This document shows, in pieces, positions 3,802-32,025 of a stretch of DNA of 32,404 bases. Source of the stretch: a virus. Made by a program: the position numbers and the translations under genes. The notes under the pieces were generated by a model. It saw nothing but the letters and a program-made list of their open reading frames with translations. It ran no database searches and was not told where the DNA came from. Position 1 is the first letter of the stretch. Each line of letters starts with the position of its first letter. The DNA is taken from IMG/VR virus record IMGVR_UViG_3300028283_000022, positions 1 through 32,404 of that record; one strand, given 5' to 3'.

Positions 3802-4140
3802 ATGAACGACGCGAAACATGACACCAAACATACTGAAACTTGCGACTCTAGCAAAACGTGTTTGTATCACGTAGATATTGCGGTAGACATACGAGAAATC
3901 ATTACAAGGCAAGATTACTTAATAGAGAAGCTCTCAGATTTTAAGCTCGAAGTAAGCAGAGGTATTACAGACTTAACAGCAGTTATTACTTCACACGATC
4001 ACCGAATAACAACTCTTGAAAATGAAGTGACTTTTTGGCGCAAGTCTTCAGAGCGTCGCTTTGCAATTCTAATAATCGTAATGCCTTTTATCGCCGGTAT
4101 AATTGCAATTATTCACGAACTATTACAAAAGCTTCACTAA
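3802..4140 (+). CDS. Small membrane protein of the lysis cassette (XhlA/holin-accessory-like)
   Basis: A 112-aa protein with a soluble, partly coiled-coil N-terminal region (residues 25-80, VDIREIITRQDYLIEKL and HDHRITTLENEV) and one membrane helix near the C-terminus at about 87-106 (FAILIIVMPFIAGIIAIIHE), preceded by basic KSSERR. This layout recalls XhlA-type haemolysin/holin-associated proteins. I chose the ATG at 3802 because AAGGG lies six bases upstream; an ATG at 3796 overlapping the endolysin stop is the alternative. It sits between the endolysin and a short hydrophobic protein, so a role in lysis is likely, but which of the two is the pore-former cannot be decided. Confidence 0.7.
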   Translation: MNDAKHDTKHTETCDSSKTCLYHVDIAVDIREIITRQDYLIEKLSDFKLEVSRGITDLTAVITSHDHRITTLENEVTFWRKSSERRFAILIIVMPFIAGIIAIIHELLQKLH

Positions 4141-4142
4141 CT

Positions 4143-4304
4143 ATGAACCTACACACAGACATATTTGAAGCACTACAAGACCCGTCCACGTGGGCGTCAA
4201 TTTCTGGAGTCATTGCCGGTGCAAACATGGATACGCCTTACGCTTGGTTGATTGTTCTTGCGGGTATCATAGGCGTCATTATGAAGTGGGAGCCAAAAAA
4301 ATAG
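4143..4304 (+). CDS. Small holin-like membrane protein
   Basis: A 53-aa protein starting two bases after the previous stop. It has two hydrophobic stretches, a short one at about 17-27 (WASISGVIAGA) and a clear helix at about 33-47 (YAWLIVLAGIIGVIMKW), and a basic end WEPKK. The size, charge layout and position last in the lysis cassette fit a small holin or holin-like protein letting the endolysin cross the inner membrane. The reading frame is open further upstream inside the preceding gene, but that part is a shadow. Its TAG stop is the first part of the terminator hairpin, so the plus-strand unit ends here. Confidence 0.66.
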   Translation: MNLHTDIFEALQDPSTWASISGVIAGANMDTPYAWLIVLAGIIGVIMKWEPKK

Positions 4305-4324
4305 CCCCAGACCTCGGGGCTTTT
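4303..4324. terminator. Bidirectional intrinsic terminator between convergent operons
   Basis: A six-pair stem AGCCCC / GGGGCT with a seven-base loop, followed on the plus strand by TTTT and on the minus strand by a run of T (the plus strand shows AAAAAA at 4295-4300). It lies exactly between the end of the plus-strand lysis genes and the end of the 11-kb minus-strand operon, so it can stop both. Confidence 0.85.
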
Positions 4325-4342
4325 GGTGGTTGTTGGTACGCG

Positions 4343-4873
4343 CTAGTAGTACACGCTTGAGTCCTCAAGGTTAACGTTCTTTAGCCTGATCTTGAGTTCC
4401 ATCGGAGTCGTCCATGCTCCGTTTGCGTCGTACCAGTATCCCCTCCCGTTGTGGTACGTAATCTCTCCCTCCATCACAAAACGCTTCATTACCAGTGCCG
4501 TTATCCAGAATAGCTCAATAGCCTTGTTCACTGGATTTTCTGGGTTGTTTCTGTCAAAGTGGCAGTACTGATCGGGAGTACAATCTTGGATAGTGAGCAG
4601 CGATCGGATATGCCTCCTGACGTTCTCACCTCCGAACAAATCACGCTTTAGCGTGTCGTGCGGAAGGCTAATAGATGACATGTAAGACACGTAGATTGAC
4701 TCGCAAATAATCTCTACTTCTCGAATTGTCAGGTTTGAAAACAGCTCCTCGCTGCCAAAAATCTCTTTGCACTTGTTCCAGCCAGACCATAAATCAAAGA
4801 ACTTCGGGTTGTTCTGGATGTACGAGGCGTGGAACTTATTAATCTGCTCAAAAACGTATTGTAGTGTATTCAT
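4343..4873 (-). CDS. Hypothetical protein, last gene of the replication/packaging operon
   Basis: A 176-aa soluble protein with no family I recognise. The ATG at 4873 follows GAGG seven bases upstream. Features: aromatic-rich N-terminus (YVFEQINKFHASYIQNNPKFFDLWSGW), a helical middle, and a C-terminal block with GRGYWYDANGAWTTPMELKIRLKN that looks like a small beta domain. It ends 19 bases from the bidirectional terminator. It lies 45 bases after the preceding gene, a larger gap than elsewhere in this operon. Function unknown. Confidence 0.7.
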   Translation of the reverse strand: MNTLQYVFEQINKFHASYIQNNPKFFDLWSGWNKCKEIFGSEELFSNLTIREVEIICESIYVSYMSSISLPHDTLKRDLFGGENVRRHIRSLLTIQDCTPDQYCHFDRNNPENPVNKAIELFWITALVMKRFVMEGEITYHNGRGYWYDANGAWTTPMELKIRLKNVNLEDSSVYY

Positions 4874-4917
4874 GTATACCTCGTGGAAAAGGACGAGTTT
4901 CCCCGTCCCGTTGGCTT

Positions 4918-5205
4918 CTAGTCTGCGTACTTCGCGTAGTACTTCTTTTCGTTTCTAAAGCCGACAGACTGCGCAAACTTCTCAATGCAAGTCTGAATCT
5001 GTCGGAACGCATCATACTGCGCGTCACAATCGCACACATCCAGTACTTCTTGCGTTATGCCATCAAGTACGCTCACTCGCGGCTTGTAAAAATCGATTCC
5101 GTCATCGCTGGAAAACGTGTTAGTATAATCTGCAACTGAAAACGAAACGTATAACACAGCGTCTTTTACTTCGTGGCTGATAATCTTCACTTGTTCGCAG
5201 TTCAT
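4918..5205 (-). CDS. Hypothetical small protein
   Basis: A 95-aa acidic protein (MNCEQVKIISHEVKDAVLYV...). I start it at the ATG at 5205 because AGAGGG lies just upstream; the frame stays open to a TTG at 5232 that has no good ribosome site and would place that motif inside the coding region. It contains a Cys-Asp pair motif (VLDVCDCDAQYDAF) and a basic C-terminus (NEKKYYAKYAD). No family was recognised. About 80 bases upstream lies a degenerate copy of the TATCTCT-AA-AGAGATA palindrome, so this gene may have its own regulated promoter. Confidence 0.65.
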   Translation of the reverse strand: MNCEQVKIISHEVKDAVLYVSFSVADYTNTFSSDDGIDFYKPRVSVLDGITQEVLDVCDCDAQYDAFRQIQTCIEKFAQSVGFRNEKKYYAKYAD

Positions 5206-5283
5206 TTCCGTACCCTCTGTTGGTGTTTTCAAGTGCGTTCACTTGATAAAGAACAGTCTACAGATTATTTTTATTATGTTGTA

Positions 5284-5299
5284 TATCTCTAAAGGGGTA
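5284..5299. promoter_or_regulatory. Degenerate operator-like palindrome upstream of the 5205 gene
   Basis: TATCTCTAAAGGGGTA here matches the perfect palindrome at 30378-30393 except for two bases in the right arm, and the flanking bases (TGTATA before the left arm) also agree. Both copies lie upstream of minus-strand genes. The stretch 5206-5486 carries no supported gene; besides this site it holds a start-less open frame at 5341-5469 (minus) that may be gene debris. Confidence 0.5.
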
Positions 5300-5486
5300 T
5301 TAGATATTTTCAAATAATGTAACTTTGTACGAGAGAAGAACTACGCTATCACATGAGAACCTCGCCACTCTTTGGCTTCCCGCTGATTGTTGCACTTGTA
5401 AATTCCAGACTCTGCTTCCGCTTCCGCGTGCCAAAGAAGCTTTTCTAGTCTATCTACACGGTGTGGGCTTTAGGCTCAATCCAAGA

Positions 5487-16112: not shown

Positions 16113-16880
16113 ATGGATAAAAACACATTTTCCGATCTTTTGAGTGTCGGCGGTCGGGTTCGTTATGCCCGCGCGATAGTTGCTTGTATTGACCAAGGGC
16201 GTCTTGCAGGGAAGATCGGATTAAAACAATCTGCGATTTCTTCGATAGAGAGCGGCAGGACTAAAAACACGGACAAACTACAACAAATAGCCGATGCTTG
16301 CGGCGTGAGTTATGAATGGATTATGCATGGCGGGGATTTGAAAACCAAAGAAAATTGTGGAGAGTTATTTGATTGTGAGAGGGGACTAAATATTCATGCT
16401 GATACAGAGGGGGGTTTGGCTCGGAGGTTTTTGCGGGCAAGGAAGTTGGCAGGACTGACGCAAACGGAGGCGGCAAAGATTGTGGGAGTGGCACAGAACA
16501 CAGTTGTGACGATTGAAAACGGGGTTACAAGCAGGTCTAAGTATTTACCAGGCTTTGCAAAGGCGTTTGGTGTCCGCAATGAATGGCTAGCAACTGGAAA
16601 TGGGGATATGTGCCCAAAGCCTGATGTTCAATCTGAGCATGTCGCCTCACCGTTGCGATCCGCAGACCAGAATCGTATCTCTGACATTTTTGCTTCCGTG
16701 CTTAAGATGTTGGACATTAAACATGAATCTATAATATTGTCTTTATTTCAAGCATACCTAAGCACTGGAGATGAGATGCTAATCGAGTCCATGAAGGCAC
16801 TACTAGGTAACAGGAATAGTACAGAAGAACGGGGTTTTAGCAAAAGACGAACCGAAGAAGTAGAGAGGGTTGCTTGCTAA
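16113..16880 (+). CDS. Phage repressor with two XRE-type helix-turn-helix domains
   Basis: A 255-aa protein. A first HTH (residues about 11-55: RVRYARAIVACIDQGRLAGKIGLKQSAISSIESGRTKNTDKLQQIADACGVSYEWIMHG) and a second at about 104-155 (ARRFLRARKLAGLTQTEAAKIVGVAQNTVVTIENGVTSRSKYLPGFAKAFGVRNEWLATG) are both Cro/CI-like. There is no LexA/CI peptidase (Ser-Lys) domain, so control would not be RecA autocleavage but antirepression, in line with the many antirepressor-type genes to the right. I start at 16113 because AAGGGG lies at proper distance; a GTG at 16104 would overlap it. Divergent from the RHH gene. Confidence 0.85.
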   Translation: MDKNTFSDLLSVGGRVRYARAIVACIDQGRLAGKIGLKQSAISSIESGRTKNTDKLQQIADACGVSYEWIMHGGDLKTKENCGELFDCERGLNIHADTEGGLARRFLRARKLAGLTQTEAAKIVGVAQNTVVTIENGVTSRSKYLPGFAKAFGVRNEWLATGNGDMCPKPDVQSEHVASPLRSADQNRISDIFASVLKMLDIKHESIILSLFQAYLSTGDEMLIESMKALLGNRNSTEERGFSKRRTEEVERVAC

Positions 16881-16897: not shown

Positions 16898-17146
16898 ATG
16901 AGCAGGTTAGCTATCCTATTTTTATCGTTGGTCTGTAGCCTTGGTTGTGTTGCAGATGACGCGTTGGGCGTTGGGCAAGGTAAAAAGTGTGTGTATAAGC
17001 CCGTCATGTCGGACGATGACCTTACCTACCCCAACACCCGCTTAGCTAAAATAGCCACTAGCAGACCTCCCATTAGATATCCAATAAACGCCTCCAGCAT
17101 AACCAACAGCTTTCCTAATGCCGATCTCGGCACCCAGTCTCCGTAG
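16898..17146 (+). CDS. Small exported protein, C-terminus overlapping the channel gene
   Basis: An 82-aa open frame with AGGG six bases before its ATG. Residues 1-20 are a signal peptide (MSRLAILFLSLVCSLGCVA, then DDALG). The following GQGKKCVYKPVMSDDDL resembles small secreted proteins of proteobacterial phages. The last 40 residues are read through the 3' end of the oppositely oriented channel gene and do not look like a natural continuation, so the original gene may have been truncated when the channel gene was joined here. It may be real in its first 45 residues only. Confidence 0.45.
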   Translation: MSRLAILFLSLVCSLGCVADDALGVGQGKKCVYKPVMSDDDLTYPNTRLAKIATSRPPIRYPINASSITNSFPNADLGTQSP

Positions 17147-17829
17147 CCAATGGTTGTAAAGGTTACCGTCGAGAAGTAAACGCCATCCAACAGTGTTGGG
17201 GCTGATCCTGTGTTGCTTACGATTGTTTCCGGTACTGCTGAAAAGATGACCCCGAAAGTGGTTATCACTCCCACTACCCATGCCATCCAACGCGATAAAG
17301 ATTGGCCATAGTTGCTAGTAAGCCATAGCCACCATGACATGGTAGGGTGACGTCTCTTTAGATGTTCTATGCGCTGCTGAAAGTGTGCCTGTTCATGCAA
17401 CAATACGGCCAGCGTAAAGTTGATGCTGTTTAGATCAACGCCTAGAAAACTTGTTTTCGTATCGTACTGCACGTTGTCTAATAGTGTTCCATTCATTCGG
17501 CACCAGTCGAAACTTGTTCCTCTTAGATTCGACTCTGACAACCAAGTATCATCAAGGTTTGATGCTGACAAGTTCGAGTTACTGAGGTCTGCTCTAAAGA
17601 AGTCTATCTTTGACAGGTCTTGCTTGCTCAAGTCTACCCCGTTTAGCGGTGCTCCCCTCATATCCGTATGGTCGCAGTATTTGCCGACCAGTTCGTCTAA
17701 TGCCTCGCGCTTGTAGCCATTCTCTCTCCACTTCCTGAGTATTTCCTTCCCATCCGTACTCGCAAGCTCGAAAATTTCAGACTGAAATCCAATGACGCGC
17801 TGATCGACAATGGAAGCGTTCAGGTTCAT
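17026..17829 (-). CDS. Pentapeptide-repeat protein fused to a two-helix potassium channel
   Basis: A 267-aa membrane protein. Residues about 56-140 hold pentapeptide repeats of the A(D/N)LxX type (VDLSKQDLSKIDFFRADLSNSNLSASNL, then further units). A first membrane helix lies at about 181-200, a pore helix and selectivity filter TTIGYGD at 225-231, and a second helix at about 241-263, the KcsA-like 2TM layout. It should form a K+-selective tetrameric pore in the inner membrane with a cytoplasmic repeat domain. I start at 17829 since GGAG lies just upstream; the frame is open to 17871. It stands alone on this strand, with a palindrome TTTAAC-AC-GTTAAA upstream. In a phage element this would be a moron (lysogenic conversion) gene, by inference. 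Confidence 0.85.
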   Translation of the reverse strand: MNLNASIVDQRVIGFQSEIFELASTDGKEILRKWRENGYKREALDELVGKYCDHTDMRGAPLNGVDLSKQDLSKIDFFRADLSNSNLSASNLDDTWLSESNLRGTSFDWCRMNGTLLDNVQYDTKTSFLGVDLNSINFTLAVLLHEQAHFQQRIEHLKRRHPTMSWWLWLTSNYGQSLSRWMAWVVGVITTFGVIFSAVPETIVSNTGSAPTLLDGVYFSTVTFTTIGYGDWVPRSALGKLLVMLEAFIGYLMGGLLVAILAKRVLG

Positions 17830-17863
17830 TTTTTCTCCAAGAAAAATAGCCGATATCCACAAT

Positions 17864-17877
17864 TTTAACACGTTAAA
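17864..17877. promoter_or_regulatory. Palindromic operator-like site upstream of the channel gene
   Basis: TTTAAC-AC-GTTAAA, a perfect inverted repeat with six-base arms, lies 35 bases before the channel gene start in the divergent gap 17830-18051. The rest of the gap holds the promoter of the plus-strand gene and nothing else that I can support. Confidence 0.5.
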
Positions 17878-18016: not shown

Positions 18017-18044
18017 TTGACAGATCAATATTAAGTGGTATTAT
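18017..18044 (+). promoter_or_regulatory. Sigma70-type promoter for the zinc-ribbon/AT-hook gene
   Basis: TTGACA at 18017-18022 and TATTAT at 18039-18044 with 16 bases between, so transcription should start at about 18051. The first in-frame ATG is at 18052, which would make the mRNA leaderless, while a second ATG at 18100 has a modest ribosome site. Confidence 0.7.
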
Positions 18045-18099
18045 ATTACTCATGACGTCAGCGAACGTTAAACCTCAACCACAAACACCGAGAGCGACC

Positions 18100-19458
18100 A
18101 TGACCACCAAAGCCAAAGCCTCAGTAACACCGAAGGACAAACGCACGGGTATTGAGTTCGTTCACTCTTGCGGCCACGTTGGCAACCTCGTTGATTACAC
18201 GATTTATCGCGCAGACCGCTACGAAAACGGTACGGTGGTGCCATTCCGCAGCCAAACATTTTATGAGATGGCTGACATTGCGGAATACAACGAGCGTCAC
18301 GGAACAGACTATCGCTTTGTGCGTGAAGAAGAGGTAATGGTTCAGCTTTCGGGAAACCAAGGCATTCGTAGAGTGCAGTTAAGCGACCGTTTCGCCAAGA
18401 AGTGCCCTGCTTGCCGTGCAGCAGCCAAGAAAGCGGCAGAAGAAGCAAAGAAGGCCGAGGTTGTTGCGCCAGTAGTAACCCCCGCACACTCCCCAGAAGT
18501 AACGCCAGAAGCTACTCCAACAGTAAAGAAATCCCGTGGACGCCCACGCGGTTCTCGCAATATCAAGAACACAAACGCACAACAAGACCAAAGTACGGTT
18601 TCGGTCACGATCGAACGAGATGGAAAAACTGTGCAATGGACTGGCTCGATGTCTCAATACACGTCAGCTAAAAAGGTAAGGTCTCTTCCAGCTATCCACA
18701 CCTGCGGCCACTTCCCAGATGATTCTAAGTTATCTCTAAAAGGTCTACGCAAAGAAGCGTTCTACGACAAGTACGTAGAAACCTACTCTCATGAGTGCCC
18801 GATGTGCGTTGCCGGTTCAAGCGTTTCTGACGCCGATTTACAAACCCTTGACCTGCCTTTATACGCTGAGCCTTCCATTGAGGTAGCACAAGAGACGGTA
18901 GAGGTCGTGCAGGTTGAAGCCGTGCAAGAAGAAGTAAAAACGGAAGTAGTAGAGGAAGAGGTCGAGCTAATTAAGTCTCCGCTGGTTTTGCAAATTGAAG
19001 AGTTGATAGCGGAGATCAGGTCAAAGAAGGCAAACAAGGCGAATGTAGAAGCAGTGGCTGTTCGTGAGACGGTGAAAACAGAGTCAAGGATATCACCTGA
19101 CGAAGCAATGTTGAACTTCTACGATTCTAGCTTCCAAAACGTTTCTGACTATTGCGAAGACCAGTACGAACCGAGTAGCGAAGAAATTGGTGAGGTTGTT
19201 TATTACGACGAATGGGGTTCTGTAGTTAAACAAGAAAACATGCGGGATGTTAGCGATTACTACGAGCTGATTAACGGGCAGATGGTGAAAACGCGTGCAT
19301 CTAAAGTCGGTTATAGCGACGCTGGCTTTGTCCGTGGGTTTTCTAAAATGAATAGGGAGGATATGACCTCTTTACAGAAGATCAGGTCTACATCAATGAG
19401 CAACAGGTATTACGAAGGCAAGCGCGAGGAAAGGGCTGGAAAGAAATCTGGCTGGTAG
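18100..19458 (+). CDS. Double zinc-ribbon / AT-hook protein, unknown role
   Basis: A 452-aa protein (468 if the ATG at 18052 is used). Counting from 18052, two similar metal-binding units are visible: C40-G-H42 with C118-x-x-C121, and C218-G-H220 with C249-x-x-C252, both of the form 'CGH ... CPxC'. Between them is an AT-hook-like stretch SRGRPRGSR at 161-169, suggesting contact with the minor groove of AT-rich DNA. Residues 260-330 are very Glu/Val-rich (acidic), and the C-terminus is Tyr/Ser-rich with a basic end. I chose 18100 for the weak GAGAG upstream. It has its own strong promoter and leads a plus-strand series. It could be a DNA-bound regulator or a host-takeover factor; the family is unknown to me. 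Confidence 0.8.
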   Translation: MTTKAKASVTPKDKRTGIEFVHSCGHVGNLVDYTIYRADRYENGTVVPFRSQTFYEMADIAEYNERHGTDYRFVREEEVMVQLSGNQGIRRVQLSDRFAKKCPACRAAAKKAAEEAKKAEVVAPVVTPAHSPEVTPEATPTVKKSRGRPRGSRNIKNTNAQQDQSTVSVTIERDGKTVQWTGSMSQYTSAKKVRSLPAIHTCGHFPDDSKLSLKGLRKEAFYDKYVETYSHECPMCVAGSSVSDADLQTLDLPLYAEPSIEVAQETVEVVQVEAVQEEVKTEVVEEEVELIKSPLVLQIEELIAEIRSKKANKANVEAVAVRETVKTESRISPDEAMLNFYDSSFQNVSDYCEDQYEPSSEEIGEVVYYDEWGSVVKQENMRDVSDYYELINGQMVKTRASKVGYSDAGFVRGFSKMNREDMTSLQKIRSTSMSNRYYEGKREERAGKKSGW

Positions 19459-20234: not shown

Positions 20235-20609
20235 ATGGCAAGAAAACTAAAACTGAAAAAACAAGAAGAGATGAGCAGTAAGCCCGTCACAATTACTGTT
20301 GCATCGGGATATCTGAAGGTACCACCCGCAGAGGTTTATAACTATCTACAAGAATTGGGTTGGGTCTATAAAAACTCAGGTAGTTTTGTTGCGAATCAAG
20401 AGAAAATAAAAATGGGACTGTTAGAGCATGCAGATGTGAAAGAGCAGATTTTAATTACGCGGAATGGGGTAGTGAAACTATCTCAGATATTCGCAATAAA
20501 CATGTACTACCAGACTGCAAAAAATGTTTTGGCTATTAGTAAAAAAGAAGATATCAGCAGGCTTAGAAAATTATATCCGACCGCTAATAGTGAAGACACA
20601 AATGACTAA
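20235..20609 (+). CDS. Stand-alone KilAC-domain protein
   Basis: A 124-aa protein. Residues from about 18 match the KilAC domain found at the C-terminus of phage antirepressors: ITVASGYLKVPPAEVYNYLQELGWVYKNSGSFVANQEKIKMGLLEHADVKEQILITRNGVVKLSQIF. The usual BRO-N or KilA-N half is missing. The start is uncertain: the ATG at 20235 lacks a clear ribosome site; an ATG at 20271 has AAGAAG very near, and the frame is open from a GTG at 20154. Its stop overlaps the nrdJa start (ATGACTAA), so it is co-translated with the reductase. It may modulate the antirepressors further on. Confidence 0.72.
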   Translation: MARKLKLKKQEEMSSKPVTITVASGYLKVPPAEVYNYLQELGWVYKNSGSFVANQEKIKMGLLEHADVKEQILITRNGVVKLSQIFAINMYYQTAKNVLAISKKEDISRLRKLYPTANSEDTND

Positions 20610-23556
20610 TCTACAGAGCGTTTCTCTCGACATCTTCAACAAGAAATACCGACTCAAAGACAAGAATGGAAGCTGGGTAGACCAGACCATCGAGGACACT
20701 TTCAAGCGGGTTGCCAGAGCATTAGCTAATGTGGAAAAGGAAGATATACGCGAGGAGTGGTACGAGAAATTCTTGTGGGCTATGAACAACGGAGCCATTC
20801 CAGCAGGCCGCATTCTCTCCAATGCAGGTGCCACTGAGTACAAACCTTCTACCTCTACGATTAACTGCACGGTATCTGAACACGTCCAAGACTCCATGGA
20901 TGGCATTCTCCACGCTGTCCACCAAGCAGGCTTAACCCTTCATTCGGGAGCGGGTATTGGCTATTGCTTCTCCACACTCAGGCCAAAAGGTGCGTTCGTT
21001 TCAGGTGCTGGCTCCCACACTTCGGGGCCGCTTTCGTTTATGGAGATATTCGACAAGATGTGCCAAACCGTGTCATCGGCAGGTGGCAGGAGAGGGGCAC
21101 AAATGGCCACGTTCGATGTATCCCATCCAGACATCCTAGAGTTTATTAGAGCCAAACGAGAAGACGGCAGGCTACGACAATTTAATCTCTCGGTGCTAGT
21201 TACCAAAGAGTTTATGGAGGCCGTAGAAAATGATGCTAAGTGGGTACTGTCCTTCCCAATCCAAAAGAATCATGTCAAGGATAAATCAGAATTGGCCGAT
21301 CCTACCAAAGTGGTTTGGAGAAAGTGGCCAATCACGGAAGGTTACTTTGTAAATAAAGATGGACTAGTGGCGTGCAAAGTCTACAAAGAACTTCCTGCCC
21401 GCAGGCTTTGGGACGCCATCATGTCCTCCACCTACGACTACGCAGAGCCCGGATTCATTCTAATTGATGAAGTAAATAGCCTAAACAATAATTGGTGGTG
21501 TGAGGAGATTACGGCCACTAACCCTTGCGTCACGGGCGAGACAAGACTTCATACAGACAAGGGAATGATTCCAATACGCGAGCTATACGATTCCAAAGAA
21601 TTGATTGTTGCATCTGTAGATACTCGCACTCTCAATAGCAAGCCTGATTGCATTGGCGTGGTTCCTAGAGCAGCTGCGCCAGCATTTCAAACATGTACGG
21701 GAGCGGAAGTGTTTGCCGTGGAAACTGAGCACGGCTATAGCATCAATGCCACGGACTGGCACGATTTCTATACCACACGAGGCAAGATTGAGCTTCGTGA
21801 TCTAAAGGTTGGTGATCAACTTCTAATTCAATCTGGGAAAGGGCAGTTTGGAAAAGAAGGAGAGTTTCAAGACGGGTACGCAATGGCTTCAAAGTCGTCT
21901 GCATTGGTTCCTGACAACGTCTGGAAAGGTTCCGAGGATTATGTACGAGGTTATTTGCAGGCTCTCTACGAACACTACAGCGACCTATCTGGCGTTACGA
22001 AGGGAATAAGGGGAGGAAAGGAAGAGAAAATACGGCTGTTTGCGGCTTATCGGTTTTCCGATGAAAACTACCGATTTCTCAAGAATGTCCAGATACTTCT
22101 ATCCAACTTTGGAATACTCTCGAAAGTAATCGGCAGGAAATTAGATATTAGCACGTTGATTGTCTCTGGTGCATCAGTCCATAAATTCATGGCTGAAATC
22201 GGATTCCCAGCGCAAGGAAACAGATTTACTAGAGTTTGCATAGATAACCCGTGCTCCTCTGAAAACACTATAAAGAAAACGGAACACTACTACTCGAAAG
22301 TGGTCAGTATCGAGCCGCTGGGAATCTTCCCGGTCTATGACACAACACAGCCCGACCATAACTCCGTAATCTTCAATGGAATCGTAACCGGGCAATGTGG
22401 AGAGCAGCCATTACCCCCAAACGGTTCTTGCCTGCTGGGATCAATAAATCTAACTAAGTTTGTAGAACATCCATTCACTGAACAAGCTAAGTTTGACTGG
22501 AAAAGGTACATAGAAGTAGTCGAAATCTTCACCCGCATGTTAGATAACGTAGTGGAGATTAACGGCCTACCCCTTCCAGAGCAACGGAACGAGATTACCC
22601 GTAAGCGCAGACATGGAATGGGATACCTAGGACTAGGGTCTACCTTGACCATGCTAAAGATTCCTTATGGTAGTCCAGAGTCTATTGGGTTCACGGAACG
22701 AGTAACTAGAGAATTAGCACTGGTCGGTTGGAAGGTAGGGGTTGAATTAGCAAAAGAGAAAGGGGTTGCTCCGATATTTGAAGATTTCTTCGAGATTACG
22801 CCTGCTATAGCAAGGCTTAGGCCAGCGTTATTGGAAGATGGCTACAAGGTTGGCGAGAAGGTTTCAGGGAAGATACTATTCAGTTATAGCCACTATATGG
22901 AGAAGATCCGAGAGGTTAATCCAGCATTGCCAGAAGAGATCAAAACCTACGGCTGCCGATTTACTCACCATTCTTCTATAGCCCCCACAGGAACAATCTC
23001 CCTTTCACTTGGAAACAATGTAAGTAACGGAGTAGAGCCTAGCTTTGCCCACCAGTACTCAAGGAATGTCATCCAAGAGGGTAGGAAGACCAAAGAGAAA
23101 GTAGACGTGTTCTCTTATGAGTTCCTAGAATACCGTAGATTGATCGACACCAACGCCACAGTAGATAGCCTCCCTAGCTATTTCGTAACCGCTTCAGACA
23201 TTCCTCCCAAAGCACATGCCGACATTCAATCGGCCGCACAGAAGTGGGTAGATAGCAGCATATCCAAAACTATCAATGTCCCAACTGACTTTCCCTACGA
23301 AGAATTCAAGGAAATTTACCGGTACGCCTATAAAAAAGGGCTAAAGGGATGTACCACGTTTAGGTATAACCCTGCGGTTTTCCAAGGCGTGCTGGTAAAG
23401 GACAAAGACCTAGAGGCTACCAAGTACCGATTCGTATTGGACACGGGAGAAATTATAGAACTAAAGGGAAACGAAGAGGTGGAGTACGAAGGGGAAACTC
23501 ACACGGCCGCCAATTTATTTGATGCCATGAAAGAAGGGTATTACGGGAAACTATGA
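20602..23556 (+). CDS. nrdJ: AdoCbl-dependent (class II) ribonucleotide reductase, large part NrdJa, with intein
   Basis: A 984-aa precursor. Without the intein (residues 309-598) it is a 694-aa class II reductase converting ribonucleotides to deoxyribonucleotides with a B12-derived radical. Seen: TINC with Cys89 (redox Cys), FNLSVLVT, the finger-loop ATNP-CGEQ (thiyl Cys and Glu) interrupted by the intein, PNGSCLLGSINL, APTGTISL, and GCTTFRYN near Cys917. The C-terminus AANLFDAMKEGYYGKL is where the NrdJa half ends in organisms with split NrdJ, such as Pseudomonas, and the missing TSCPD part is encoded at 27129. The ATG at 20602 overlaps the kilAC stop; the frame is open upstream but the family starts here. 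Between nrdJa and nrdJb lie eight small or antirepressor-type genes, which is very unusual. Confidence 0.93.
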   Translation: MTNLQSVSLDIFNKKYRLKDKNGSWVDQTIEDTFKRVARALANVEKEDIREEWYEKFLWAMNNGAIPAGRILSNAGATEYKPSTSTINCTVSEHVQDSMDGILHAVHQAGLTLHSGAGIGYCFSTLRPKGAFVSGAGSHTSGPLSFMEIFDKMCQTVSSAGGRRGAQMATFDVSHPDILEFIRAKREDGRLRQFNLSVLVTKEFMEAVENDAKWVLSFPIQKNHVKDKSELADPTKVVWRKWPITEGYFVNKDGLVACKVYKELPARRLWDAIMSSTYDYAEPGFILIDEVNSLNNNWWCEEITATNPCVTGETRLHTDKGMIPIRELYDSKELIVASVDTRTLNSKPDCIGVVPRAAAPAFQTCTGAEVFAVETEHGYSINATDWHDFYTTRGKIELRDLKVGDQLLIQSGKGQFGKEGEFQDGYAMASKSSALVPDNVWKGSEDYVRGYLQALYEHYSDLSGVTKGIRGGKEEKIRLFAAYRFSDENYRFLKNVQILLSNFGILSKVIGRKLDISTLIVSGASVHKFMAEIGFPAQGNRFTRVCIDNPCSSENTIKKTEHYYSKVVSIEPLGIFPVYDTTQPDHNSVIFNGIVTGQCGEQPLPPNGSCLLGSINLTKFVEHPFTEQAKFDWKRYIEVVEIFTRMLDNVVEINGLPLPEQRNEITRKRRHGMGYLGLGSTLTMLKIPYGSPESIGFTERVTRELALVGWKVGVELAKEKGVAPIFEDFFEITPAIARLRPALLEDGYKVGEKVSGKILFSYSHYMEKIREVNPALPEEIKTYGCRFTHHSSIAPTGTISLSLGNNVSNGVEPSFAHQYSRNVIQEGRKTKEKVDVFSYEFLEYRRLIDTNATVDSLPSYFVTASDIPPKAHADIQSAAQKWVDSSISKTINVPTDFPYEEFKEIYRYAYKKGLKGCTTFRYNPAVFQGVLVKDKDLEATKYRFVLDTGEIIELKGNEEVEYEGETHTAANLFDAMKEGYYGKL
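21526..22395 (+). other. Intein in NrdJa at the catalytic-loop Cys
   Basis: A 290-residue in-frame insert between ATNP and CGEQ. It starts with Cys (CVTGETRLHTDKGMIPI, block A), has a T-x-x-H block B (ATDWHDFYTTRG), the LRDLKVGDQL strand, and ends with DHNSVIFNGIVTGQ before the extein Cys. The last residues are Gly-Gln where most inteins have His-Asn; Gln-ended inteins in ribonucleotide reductases are known to splice. The middle (YVRGYLQALYEHYSDLSG, then LKNVQILLSNFGILSKVI) looks like one degenerate LAGLIDADG-type endonuclease core with the acidic residues lost, so homing is probably dead. The reductase would be inactive until splicing. Confidence 0.9.
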
Positions 23557-25654: not shown

Positions 25655-26266
25655 ATGAACAAGTTTACTGTTTACCAGTTCGAAACAAACAAGATCAGGG
25701 TATGGCGTGATAGTTTTGGCAACCCTTGGTTTTCCGTTCACGACATATGTCGGTGCGGCCGATCTAACAACCGCGTATGGTTTTATGGCTTGCCAGAGAA
25801 CCAACAGGGGATAGCAAATGTATCATCCACGAAGTCTGTCTTGGTCGTTAGTTTTTACGGGTTGGTGACAGCCTCGGAGAAAACTCGTACCGACGTTAAA
25901 AAACTCATTGACTTTATCAGGTCAACCGTGATGCCTAACTTTCAGAAGAAAGACATTGCTAGTGTTGCACCATCCACTACTAAGACAACAGAATCAAAGC
26001 CATTTGCGTTGAGCCTAGCTTTTGAGAATCCAAAACAGGCAATTACATCCGAAACTAAAGAGATTGCAAAACCTGCCATTACGCTATCAACAGAAGAGAA
26101 GATAGCGACCATTTTTAGAATACAATCCGAATTGGAGAAGGTGCCGGGAGTAAATAAGTCTCGGTTGTTATCCGAAACCCTAAGTTGCTTGCAAGAGGTT
26201 ACTGGATTACCCCTTGATAGCATGCGTTCGTTAATTACAGATGAAGTTACACAACGTGGCCGCTAA
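25655..26266 (+). CDS. BRO-N-like protein, degenerate, with a different C-terminal domain
   Basis: A 203-aa protein with GGAG six bases before its ATG. Residues 1-95 look like a weakened BRO-N domain: YQFETNKIRVWRDSFGNPWFSVHDICRCGRSNNRVWFYGL ... VVSFYGLVTASEKTRTDVKKLIDFIRSTVMP. The C-terminal 60 residues (LSTEEKIATIFRIQSELEKVPGVNKSRLLSETLSCLQEVTGLPLDSM) are a helical domain that is not KilAC. The stop lies inside the second copy of the nrdJa 3' end, so this gene ends at a recombination scar. Likely a regulator or antirepressor relative with changed specificity. Confidence 0.72.
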   Translation: MNKFTVYQFETNKIRVWRDSFGNPWFSVHDICRCGRSNNRVWFYGLPENQQGIANVSSTKSVLVVSFYGLVTASEKTRTDVKKLIDFIRSTVMPNFQKKDIASVAPSTTKTTESKPFALSLAFENPKQAITSETKEIAKPAITLSTEEKIATIFRIQSELEKVPGVNKSRLLSETLSCLQEVTGLPLDSMRSLITDEVTQRGR

Positions 26267-26304
26267 TCTGTTTGATGCCATGAAAGAAGGGTATTATGGA
26301 AAAC
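26258..26304 (+). pseudogene. Second copy of the nrdJa 3' end (remnant), matching 23505-23551
   Basis: 47 bases match the nrdJa end with five differences. Read in the nrdJa frame, they still code AANLFDAMKEGYYGK, because all five changes are at third codon positions. The remnant is then followed by unrelated codons and a stop. It lies between the BRO-N-like gene and the small genes before nrdJb and marks the place where the reductase pair was rearranged. It must come from a separately evolved nrdJa, not from a recent copy of the one here. Confidence 0.85.
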
Positions 26305-26812: not shown

Positions 26813-27151
26813 ATGCCATGCATCAGCTACGAAAACACGTATTACAAAATGCAAATGGATATTTGGGAAGAAGAAGGTGAGATTTGGTTCTTCCTAGATG
26901 CTGTGGTGCTACCAGAACGACTAACACGAGTAATAGACTCTCTCGAAAAAGTAGAAGAGAGATTTCTTAGAGGGCTTAGGGACAACACGAGAAAAGTGTA
27001 TTGCCACGGAGTCCAATACGTCGTGAATAAGGAAGGTCTCGACATTCTAACCTCTATGAGAGAAACCCCAGACATCATTGCCCCATTCTGCCACGCCGCA
27101 ATACTCAAACACCGAAAAGGAGAATTGAATGTCAACCAGAATTGCAACTAA
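26813..27151 (+). CDS. BRO-N-like truncated regulatory protein
   Basis: A 112-aa protein with GGAGA before its ATG at 26813. The pattern MQMDIWEEEGEIWFFLDAVVLPERLTRVIDSLEKVEERFLRGLRDNTRKVYCHGVQYVVNKEGLDILTSMRETP follows a BRO-N domain (W-F-x-x-x-V... then V-N-x-x-G-L), but without conserved 'S-R' and any C-terminal domain. It overlaps the nrdJb start by 23 bases. Probably a regulator fragment or decoy; the family call is by pattern only. Confidence 0.55.
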   Translation: MPCISYENTYYKMQMDIWEEEGEIWFFLDAVVLPERLTRVIDSLEKVEERFLRGLRDNTRKVYCHGVQYVVNKEGLDILTSMRETPDIIAPFCHAAILKHRKGELNVNQNCN

Positions 27152-27755
27152 GATCGTTGATTATAGCGTTGTCCAGTCCGATGCTACCGTGCTTCAAATG
27201 CCAATAGCTTCGAATCCTCAAAGCATAATAGTTACAACCGCAAAAAAAGAACGGCCTCCCCTTCTCCACGGAACCACTTACAAAGTGCTAAGCCCGTTAT
27301 CTGAGCACGCCATGTACGTGACCATCAACGACATACTAGAAGATGGCAAGCGGTCACCATTCGAGATGTTCGTTAATTCTAAGAACATGGAACACTACCA
27401 ATGGATCGTAGCCCTCACCCGCACAATATCAGCAGTGTTTAGGCATGGTGGGGACGTGAGCTTTCTAGTTGAAGAGCTCAAATCAGTATTTGATCCAAAA
27501 GGTGGCTATTTCAAAAAGGGTGGGAAGTGGATGCCTTCACTAGTGGCCGAAATTGGGGATGTGATTGAGGAGCACCTATCTTCTATTGGATTGTCTTTTA
27601 AGGTGCCTGCCGTGAATCCATCCGCACGAAACGCTGGAAGTGTATCCAACCATACCGCCATGGAAGTACAGTGCGAAAAATGCCTACAATTCTCAGTAGT
27701 GGTCAGCGAGGGATGTAGTACGTGCATGAGTTGTGGAGATTCAAAATGCGGATAA
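27129..27755 (+). CDS. nrdJ: AdoCbl-dependent ribonucleotide reductase, small C-terminal part NrdJb (TSCPD)
   Basis: A 208-aa protein that corresponds to the C-terminal TSCPD-containing part of class II reductases: LLHGTTYKVLSPLSEHAMYVTINDILEDGKRSPFEMFVNSKNMEHYQWIVALTRTISAVFRHGGDVSFLVEELKSVFDPKGGYFKKGGKWMPSLVAEIGDVIEEHL, then a Cys-rich tail with CEKCLQF and CSTCMSCGDSKCG that may carry electrons to the active site. In Pseudomonas, NrdJ is split in the same way into NrdJa and NrdJb from adjacent genes and both parts are needed. Here the halves are separated by 3572 bases. A good ribosome site AAGGAG lies before the ATG. Its stop overlaps the start of the repA-like gene. Confidence 0.88.
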   Translation: MSTRIATKIVDYSVVQSDATVLQMPIASNPQSIIVTTAKKERPPLLHGTTYKVLSPLSEHAMYVTINDILEDGKRSPFEMFVNSKNMEHYQWIVALTRTISAVFRHGGDVSFLVEELKSVFDPKGGYFKKGGKWMPSLVAEIGDVIEEHLSSIGLSFKVPAVNPSARNAGSVSNHTAMEVQCEKCLQFSVVVSEGCSTCMSCGDSKCG

Positions 27756-30401: not shown

Positions 30402-30453
30402 AATAAAATAAACTGTAAAATGTTCTTTAGTGATTGATTGCACTGGAGGTTGT

Positions 30454-30816
30454 ATGAAAGTAGGCGTTGTTGGTAGCAGGTCAATTAAAGAATCACCACG
30501 GCTAATCGAAGTTTTGAATAGCCTTGGGTTTATCAGTTTGATTGTGTCGGGCGGGGCTGCAGGGGTTGACACGCTAGCAGAATGGTACGCACATGTTGAA
30601 TGTATCGATACTTTAATTTTTAAGCCAGATTACAGACGCTACGGAAAGCGAGCACCATTGGAGCGTAATACTTTTATTGTGGATGCTTGCGATGTGTTAG
30701 TAGCGGTTTGGGATGGTGTTTCGAAAGGAACAATGGATACGGTCTCGAAAGCACGTAAGTTTGGAAAGCGGGTTATTCTGATTGAACCTGAGCGGCCACA
30801 GGGTTCACTTCTTTAG
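30454..30816 (+). CDS. SLOG-superfamily (YspA/DUF2493-like) nucleotide-binding protein
   Basis: A 120-aa Rossmann-like protein with GGAGG before its ATG. Motifs: GVVGSRS at the start, IVSGGAAGVDTLAEWYA (the GGxxGxD loop), FKPDYRRYGKRAPLERNTFIVDACDVLVAVWDGVSKGTMDTVSKARKFGKRVI. It matches small SLOG proteins related to DprA and LOG that bind nucleotides or derivatives, common in phages and near defence systems. It may sense or cleave a nucleotide signal; the actual substrate is unknown. It is divergent from the recombination unit and followed by a perfect terminator. Confidence 0.85.
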   Translation: MKVGVVGSRSIKESPRLIEVLNSLGFISLIVSGGAAGVDTLAEWYAHVECIDTLIFKPDYRRYGKRAPLERNTFIVDACDVLVAVWDGVSKGTMDTVSKARKFGKRVILIEPERPQGSLL

Positions 30817-31214: not shown

Positions 31215-31254
31215 AATCGAAATCTAAACCAGTTTACCAACGCGAGACATGACA

Positions 31255-32025
31255 ATGAAACCAATCCCACTCCGATTCTCTGATCTGACACACGATAGCC
31301 TGCGTCTTGCAAGCGACATTCGCAAGTTTGCAGAAGCAATGGGTATGGCTAAATTCACACCTGCGATTTCTAGCAGATTAGTACGTGCTGGCATCATCAA
31401 TTCAGTTGTTGATATTTTTTTGGTCACTGTTAACGATATGAGTAGCGCAACGGCAGACTCTAGTCTAAAGATCAAAGACAAGGATACGTATTTTAACAGC
31501 GTCTTAGATTCTGTTCATAGAAGCAAAGAGATCACCTTTTCCAAGTTTATACGAGCCATTTTTCTACTAGACATTTCAGAGAAAGAGGCTAACAGGCTTG
31601 CAAAAGAGATTGGCACACTCGAAAACATGTTGGCTAGTAAAATTTACGGTTATTTTAGTAGAGAGGTAATAGACGGGTTACTGAAAGCCGAGGTTATAAT
31701 TCAATACGAAGTGGCGCAGGAGAAGGAAAAGAGCAAAAAGAAGCAATGGAGCTATTCAGACGAGTACACCACTATTTCTAAAGAAGATTTTAGAGAGTTG
31801 ATTGAATTCACACAAATTCGAGAGCCACACGCTTCTGATCTCGAAAGCGTATTTGTGGAAGGTAAGAGTGTTAGTTTAGTTGCCAATGAGAGAGGGGTTC
31901 ACGTATCAATTATTATGGACAGGGCTAATCAGCTTATGGATATCAGGAGAAGGTCGGAAGCGGTAACAGTGTTTGTGCCGTCACACTTGATGCAAAAGGT
32001 AAAGGAAATGGCAGAAACACTGTAG
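31255..32025 (+). CDS. Putative DNA-binding regulator with KorA/TrfB-like C-terminal domain
   Basis: A 256-aa protein. The N-terminal 140 residues are helical (RFSDLTHDSLRLASDIRKFAEAMGMAKFTPAISSRLVRAGIIN ... KFIRAIFLLDISEKEANRLAKEIGTLENML) without a family that I know. The C-terminal part, ISKEDFRELIEFTQIREPHASDLESVFVEGKSVSLVANERGVHVSIIMDRANQLMDIRRR, follows the KorA/TrfB pattern of a helix, then V-x-G-x-S helix-turn-helix. I chose the ATG at 31255 because CGAGA lies seven bases upstream; an ATG two codons before is also possible. It could be a plasmid-like replication or partition regulator acting on the inverted repeats upstream. Confidence 0.62.
   Translation: MKPIPLRFSDLTHDSLRLASDIRKFAEAMGMAKFTPAISSRLVRAGIINSVVDIFLVTVNDMSSATADSSLKIKDKDTYFNSVLDSVHRSKEITFSKFIRAIFLLDISEKEANRLAKEIGTLENMLASKIYGYFSREVIDGLLKAEVIIQYEVAQEKEKSKKKQWSYSDEYTTISKEDFRELIEFTQIREPHASDLESVFVEGKSVSLVANERGVHVSIIMDRANQLMDIRRRSEAVTVFVPSHLMQKVKEMAETL

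Follow-up and report, generated by a model that had tools for sequence, protein, structure and literature searches.

The described defence protein closest to the one studied here is HalA, the effector of the Hailong system, which is presented in one report as an ion channel blocked by the poly-dA of HalB (PMC13275509); the inhibitory logic of Hailong is described in a second report (PMC12657230). Read from the NCBIfam profile NF051894, HalA consists of pentapeptide repeats (about positions 44-180) followed by a channel (244-336). Other membrane effectors carried by phages are RexB of lambda and the RexB-like proteins of Sbash (gp31) and P. putida P1, and in two papers RexB-like effectors appear as prophage-borne, proposed ion channels that open on infection (PMC6426596, PMC12894663). 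Since activated RexB is reported to have caused no membrane depolarisation in P. putida (PMC12894663), this analogy is itself unsettled. Lambda RexB and Sbash gp31 have four predicted transmembrane (TM) helices, and RexA is a separate sensor. Finally, the Kcv-type channels of algal viruses and short phage K+ channels such as phiK7A1_155 possess a two-TM (2TM) pore with a GYGD-type filter. Pentapeptide-repeat domains are known mainly as DNA mimics or scaffolds. Our literature searches returned no paper joining pentapeptide repeat, potassium channel and bacteriophage, no paper since 2020 on an anti-phage pentapeptide-repeat channel effector, and no paper joining HDOD and pentapeptide repeat.

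We analysed a viral contig of 32,404 bases (the whole stretch is called the window below), in which an ORF on the minus strand, 17026-17829, encodes a protein of 267 amino acids, P0001; the plus strand there is stop-rich. The original prediction had described repeats followed by a 2TM pore with TTIGYGD at this position, leaving the strand unstated, and Pfam, a test of the five-residue register, a structural model and the alignment with homologues bear out this fusion. The pentapeptide-repeat domain spans residues 55-139 (17413-17667, minus strand; PF00805/PF13599), with the best-formed units at residues 55-119. Pfam Pentapeptide matches residues 80-117 (E = 2.1e-9) with 37.2 bits, above the cut-off of 20.2, and Pentapeptide_4 matches residues 71-138 (E = 8.9e-7). 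The register test found 11 good units with centre residues from 57 to 117, a number that none of 5000 shuffles of these residues reached (maximum, 7). A linker with an amphipathic segment (residues 140-177; 17299-17412, minus strand) contains TSNYGQSLSRW, which is continuous with TM1; relatives have TSDCGRSxxRW at this place, and the alignment shows a conserved TS(D/N)xG(R/Q)SxxR motif in the amphipathic helix joining the repeats to TM1. The channel part, recognized as Ion_trans_2 at residues 189-265 (E = 2.3e-15; 56.7 bits, above the curated cut-off of 22.5), comprises TM1 (residues 178-198; 17236-17298) and TM2 (residues 237-266; 17032-17121), both on the minus strand and located by hydropathy and the model, and between them a canonical T-x-G-Y-G-D selectivity filter, TTIGYGD (residues 225-231; 17137-17157, minus strand). 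Residues T226, G228, Y229, G230 and D231 of this filter are invariant in the family alignment. P0001 is not a chance ORF, since a homologue with 47% identity exists in another phage.

An AlphaFold2 model calculated from two sequences showed strands of a single residue, recurring every five residues from residue 56 on, and was too weak for the pore. With 31 sequences, the pore helices were modelled at residues 178-198, 213-225 and 237-266, in a block with pLDDT 84-96 from residue 181 on; the repeats were of moderate quality in this model (pLDDT 63-80, residues 61-110), and for them the two-sequence model was the better one. The modelled pore has a Kir-like fold, with Z values of about 12 over 92-102 residues against KirBac3.1 entries. 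No solved chain covering both domains was present among the matches listed, at most the best 50-60 of each structure list, and no chain with both was seen among the matches listed for the viral structure library. The flanks of P0001 are positive on the repeat side and the C terminus comes immediately after TM2, so that on a positive-inside reading the simplest topology would have both termini inside. By analogy with KirBac/NaK, P0001 would be a K+-selective 2TM subunit forming a tetramer, and it is very probably a channel with a cytosolic repeat domain. Given this predicted side of the repeats, the earlier suggestion that they serve as a gating or sensing part is the natural reading, and a repeat rod continued by an amphipathic helix into TM1 makes a plausible gate.

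How does P0001 compare with the described systems? It shares with HalA the order of repeats and channel, and at positions 244-336 the HalA profile aligns with residues 167-265 of P0001 (E = 1.1e-4). For positions 44-180 the matches are repeat proteins of unrelated genomes, and a Nostoc repeat/channel fusion aligns with positions 50-338 (E = 5.7e-6). An identification of P0001 as HalA was rejected, as its 21.5 bits fall far short of the cut-off of 250; its homologue from the tailed phage L079 (see below) scores 16.4 bits. In contrast to Hailong, P0001 is encoded by a single gene with no HalB-type gene found nearby: a HalB-like nucleotidyltransferase was absent from the window ORFs scanned, including both flanking genes (16104, 18052), and from ten L079 genes scanned with Pfam. 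Because of the score below that of HalA and the lack of HalB near the gene, the trigger must differ if P0001 is an effector. None of the PADLOC models matched P0001 or the L079 protein. Like the RexB group, P0001 would be a membrane effector encoded in a phage, but with two TM helices; its flanks carry an HTH repressor gene and an ORF without family matches. The Kcv-type channels and phiK7A1_155 differ from it in having no repeat domain. The same architecture is found in PHROG 15350, a viral family without annotated function, which P0001 matches in both repeats (E = 8.1e-7 at 193-266) and channel (E = 1.7e-12 at 380-492), although the relation is distant and the repeat domain of the PHROG is much longer. 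A plasmid protein of Halalkalicoccus jeotgali fits this PHROG end to end (E = 2.8e-121), and the family therefore looks haloarchaeal. The plasmid in question, NC_014302.1 (plasmid 5), has 23.7 kb and encodes a P4-type primase besides the fusion; it may be a provirus-like element.

The original prediction also placed the gene beside the switch genes, and this position was confirmed. The channel gene is convergent with the gene of a double-HTH repressor (16113-16880, plus strand; HTH_3, E = 2.2e-18; PHROG transcriptional repressor, E = 8e-27), from whose end it is 145 nt away, and divergent from the first rightward early ORF (18052-19458, plus strand), at a distance of 222 nt. The 468-aa early protein had no family match in Pfam, PHROGs, NCBIfam and PADLOC. 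Being convergent with the repressor gene, the channel gene is in the switch region but outside the repressor transcript, and as it is opposed to that gene, transcription in lysogeny would need a separate promoter. A ribosome-binding site (TGGAG, 17835-17839, minus strand) was recognized by eye ahead of the ATG at 17829, and so was a possible extended -10 (TGTTAAAAT, 17862-17870, minus strand), which is absent from the promoter-scan list and overlaps a TTTAAC-N2-GTTAAA palindrome (17864-17877). Near-copies of the palindrome occur elsewhere in the window at chance level only. The consensus scan gave no promoter of the channel gene's own; a promoter-like site for the divergent rightward early genes (18017-18044, plus strand; 11/12, extended -10) is a consensus match only. 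We saw no operators shared by the repressor and the channel promoter, the RNA folds of the channel-gene flanks were unremarkable, and no repressor relatives were found among viral contigs.

A scan of viral contigs with P0001 as a single protein gave no match; as profiles A2 and A1 did find relatives there, the empty scan is a matter of sensitivity. With profile A2 we detected L079, a tailed phage whose channel protein is 47% identical to P0001 over 245 residues and whose contig by eye carries integrase and tail genes. When all ORFs of at least 60 codons were compared between the window and this contig (L079 and L124), the channel gene was the sole gene in common, which argues that it moves on its own; the whole fusion is conserved in a second, otherwise unrelated phage. 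The L079 gene stands alone, flanked on either side by terminator-like hairpins (9 versus 2.1 expected); behind the hairpins follow genes for a toxin of RelE/ParE type (Gp49 family) and an HTH antitoxin. As in the window, the channel gene is divergent from early-type genes, here those of a leftward operon. A search of viral contigs with profile A3 returned L079 and nothing else. Of the five A2 matches, the four besides L079 were rejected, three being repeat proteins without a pore (L080, L082, L083) and one a pore without repeats (L081).

Profile A1, built from plasmid fusions, added eight further viral contigs. Distant fusions are represented by four of these, L254-L257, which gave matches to repeat families as well as to channel families. 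In three others (L258-L260), which hardly differ from one another, the pore is combined with another type of N-terminal half, where repeats are not demonstrated, and the last (L261) is a short channel. The L256 fusion adjoins a Mu-type transposase gene, with a repressor gene and a HigBA-like pair seen by eye, and that of L257 lies between an integrase gene (by eye) and late control gene D. In L258-L260, which are P2-type prophages, the channel gene is inserted between S, the gene for tail completion, and V, a baseplate gene; in L258, S ends at 3898, the channel gene extends over 4032-5354 and V starts at 5485. The same place is empty in Erwinia phage EtG, and in E. coli KV7 (NZ_LT795502.1, 1775631-1777245) it is occupied by DUF262 and HEPN genes, both linked to phage defence. 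As a separate observation, P2-type prophages have a cargo slot in their S-V interval, holding a K+-channel-like gene, a DUF262 and HEPN pair, or nothing. The domain pair, which the original prediction had advised looking for in prophages, recurs in other phages at accessory positions, and we are fairly confident that the channel gene is an accessory phage gene. With these phage copies, homologues are not restricted to host core genomes, the outcome named beforehand as contradicting the original prediction. The most important new evidence is this recurrence at cargo positions of phages unrelated to each other; it makes the effector guess the leading candidate.

It is the repeat/channel fusion, and not the channel as such, that is rare in viral contigs. 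The statement that channels are rare in bacterial phages did not hold up, because TTVGYGD occurs in at least 120 stretches of IMG/VR contigs (L133-L252) and 65 of the 80 examined were pore-like by hydropathy, with host contamination possible; by the register test, no repeat fusion was found among the matches listed. A TTIGYGD scan of viral contigs yielded 38 contigs, about seven of them pore-like by eye, and none with a repeat run in a pore-like ORF. Among 50,697 phage records, P0001 matched one, in the channel part only, and the L258 protein matched none; one cellular relative had 448 matches and the Halalkalicoccus protein had 105, in no case covering more than 80% of the query.

Relatives are also encoded by plasmids and chromosomes. 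P0001 matched 23 of 72,556 plasmid records, two over 80% of the query, mostly from haloarchaea, Enterococcus (channel only in one that was opened) and cyanobacteria. In one phylum, including a Desulfobacteraceae MAG, 27 of 297 genomes match the linker and pore and have repeats upstream in frame; the twelve best-scoring chromosomal relatives are 31-38% identical to P0001 from the repeats through the end of TM2. These channels of Desulfobacteraceae and kin share the linker motif with P0001 but have more repeats, a frequent HDOD neighbour and housekeeping settings. Of the 27 loci taken, the channel gene was called by our script in 19, the other eight being lost to its stricter pattern, ORF choice or contig ends. 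In 10 of these 19, the next same-strand gene belonged to one cluster, of which the one member tested was an HDOD protein (E = 8.7e-49). Channel and HDOD-type genes (L105-L112, L119, L126) often overlap or are a few bases apart on the same strand, as a conserved two-gene unit. Some loci have por and transporter genes around them. Judged from its gene neighbours, the cellular branch looks like a housekeeping one, and with HDOD, por and transporter genes next to the best-sampled cellular relatives, the family taken together is not one of defence genes. The one match of the single-protein scan of genome contigs (L002), a histidine kinase with a chance octapeptide, was dismissed.

In phylogenetic trees, P0001 and the L079 protein formed one clade (support 98/95 and 99/95). 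Viral members were dispersed over the tree, and parsimony required at least five changes between viral and cellular settings, in a tree whose cellular sampling consists of one phylum and plasmids and whose exact placements are unsure because several branches are long. The last tree was calculated without Acaryochloris, L261, L259 and L260, and Halorarius is missing from it for lack of a filter match.

The reading that we tentatively favour, a serious possibility as a whole, is that of a stand-alone, cytosolically gated K+ channel acting as an infection-triggered effector. The gene would be a moron, a single-gene accessory unit of a temperate-type phage at the border of the immunity region, putatively expressed from the prophage. 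Its product, a predicted K+-selective 2TM subunit whose N-terminal pentapeptide-repeat domain in the cytoplasm would gate the pore, would be shut in the healthy cell. A cytosolic signal of infection or stress would reach the repeat domain and open the pore; K+ would leave the cell, the membrane potential would shift, growth would halt and superinfection would be aborted, in the way thought for HalA of Hailong and RexB of lambda. An anti-phage role as such is possible, if short of probable; superinfection exclusion or abortive depolarisation, suggested for P0001 from the start, is a form that it might take.

The gene could instead serve the fitness of the lysogen, as a lysogenic-conversion K+ channel against osmotic or ionic stress drawn from a cellular housekeeping family. 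The full-length relatives in the 27 genomes mentioned above, with their ordinary chromosomal settings and the HDOD-type neighbour in over half of the called loci, are what this explanation would lead one to find; yet the two phage copies form a clade of their own, in which the repeat domain is shorter and an HDOD partner is missing, and other phage copies reside among toxin-antitoxin or cargo-slot genes, and we regard it as unlikely. Distinctly unlikely, in our estimation, is a lytic-phase function, in which early expression from the divergent region would depolarise or re-ionise the host or shut out competitors. The intergenic region of 222 nt shared by the channel gene and the window's first early gene would suit it, as would the similar arrangement of the L079 copy relative to its early-type operon, but hairpins separate the L079 copy from its neighbours, and relatives at P2-type and late-gene positions lack such a layout.

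A functionless passenger, that is, host DNA captured by the phage, would explain the slightly higher third-position GC of the channel gene (0.534 versus 0.37-0.50 in nine window genes compared). This explanation, very improbable and already disfavoured, is opposed by the intact frame, the retention of the filter and of most linker residues, the identity to an independent phage copy and the repeated occurrence in unrelated phages.

Extending the infection-triggered effector reading beyond this locus, several unrelated kinds of temperate phages might carry one-gene abortive-infection effectors, in which a repeat rod senses the signal and directly gates a K+ channel; P0001 would then share a subfamily with L079, further subfamilies would be represented by L254-L257 and PHROG 15350, and HalA would be the same device under nucleotide control. 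This generalization is doubtful. Such a sensor-pore fusion would differ from RexAB in having no separate sensor and from Hailong in having no nucleotide signal. If the proposed function is true, it links a class of phage cargo, a widespread uncharacterised family of cellular channels and the Hailong effector, and it offers a single-gene system for studying how ion channels may be gated by a pentapeptide-repeat domain. Another lead open to testing is the channel-HDOD pair of the chromosomes.

As for the rest of the window, genes were identified for terminase, Mu-type portal, DnaB, thymidylate kinase, MazG and endolysin, along with Rha and Bro/KilAC antirepressors, a CopG-like protein and an intein-bearing ribonucleotide reductase. 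The window ORFs scanned yielded neither a capsid gene nor an integrase gene, and the contig probably represents only part of the genome. The ribonucleotide reductase is split into two pieces, 20524-23556 (which has the intein) and 27129-27755, the latter matching positions 593-759 of the B12-dependent reductase (E = 1.7e-14). A 47-nt stretch from the end of the first piece is repeated at 26258-26304 (89%); from this repeat and the split reductase, about 3 kb with antirepressor genes seem to have been inserted. A YgjP-like metallopeptidase domain at the contig end (32061-32369) has HDMVN in place of the expected HExxH, and the ORF at 31249-32025 has a weak match, well under the cut-off, to the NAD-dependent DNA ligase LigA (residues 22-166; E = 4.4e-10). 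Finally, 30430-30816 encodes a SLOG-type protein (DprA/YspA-like), the SLOG fold being one used for nucleotide sensing.
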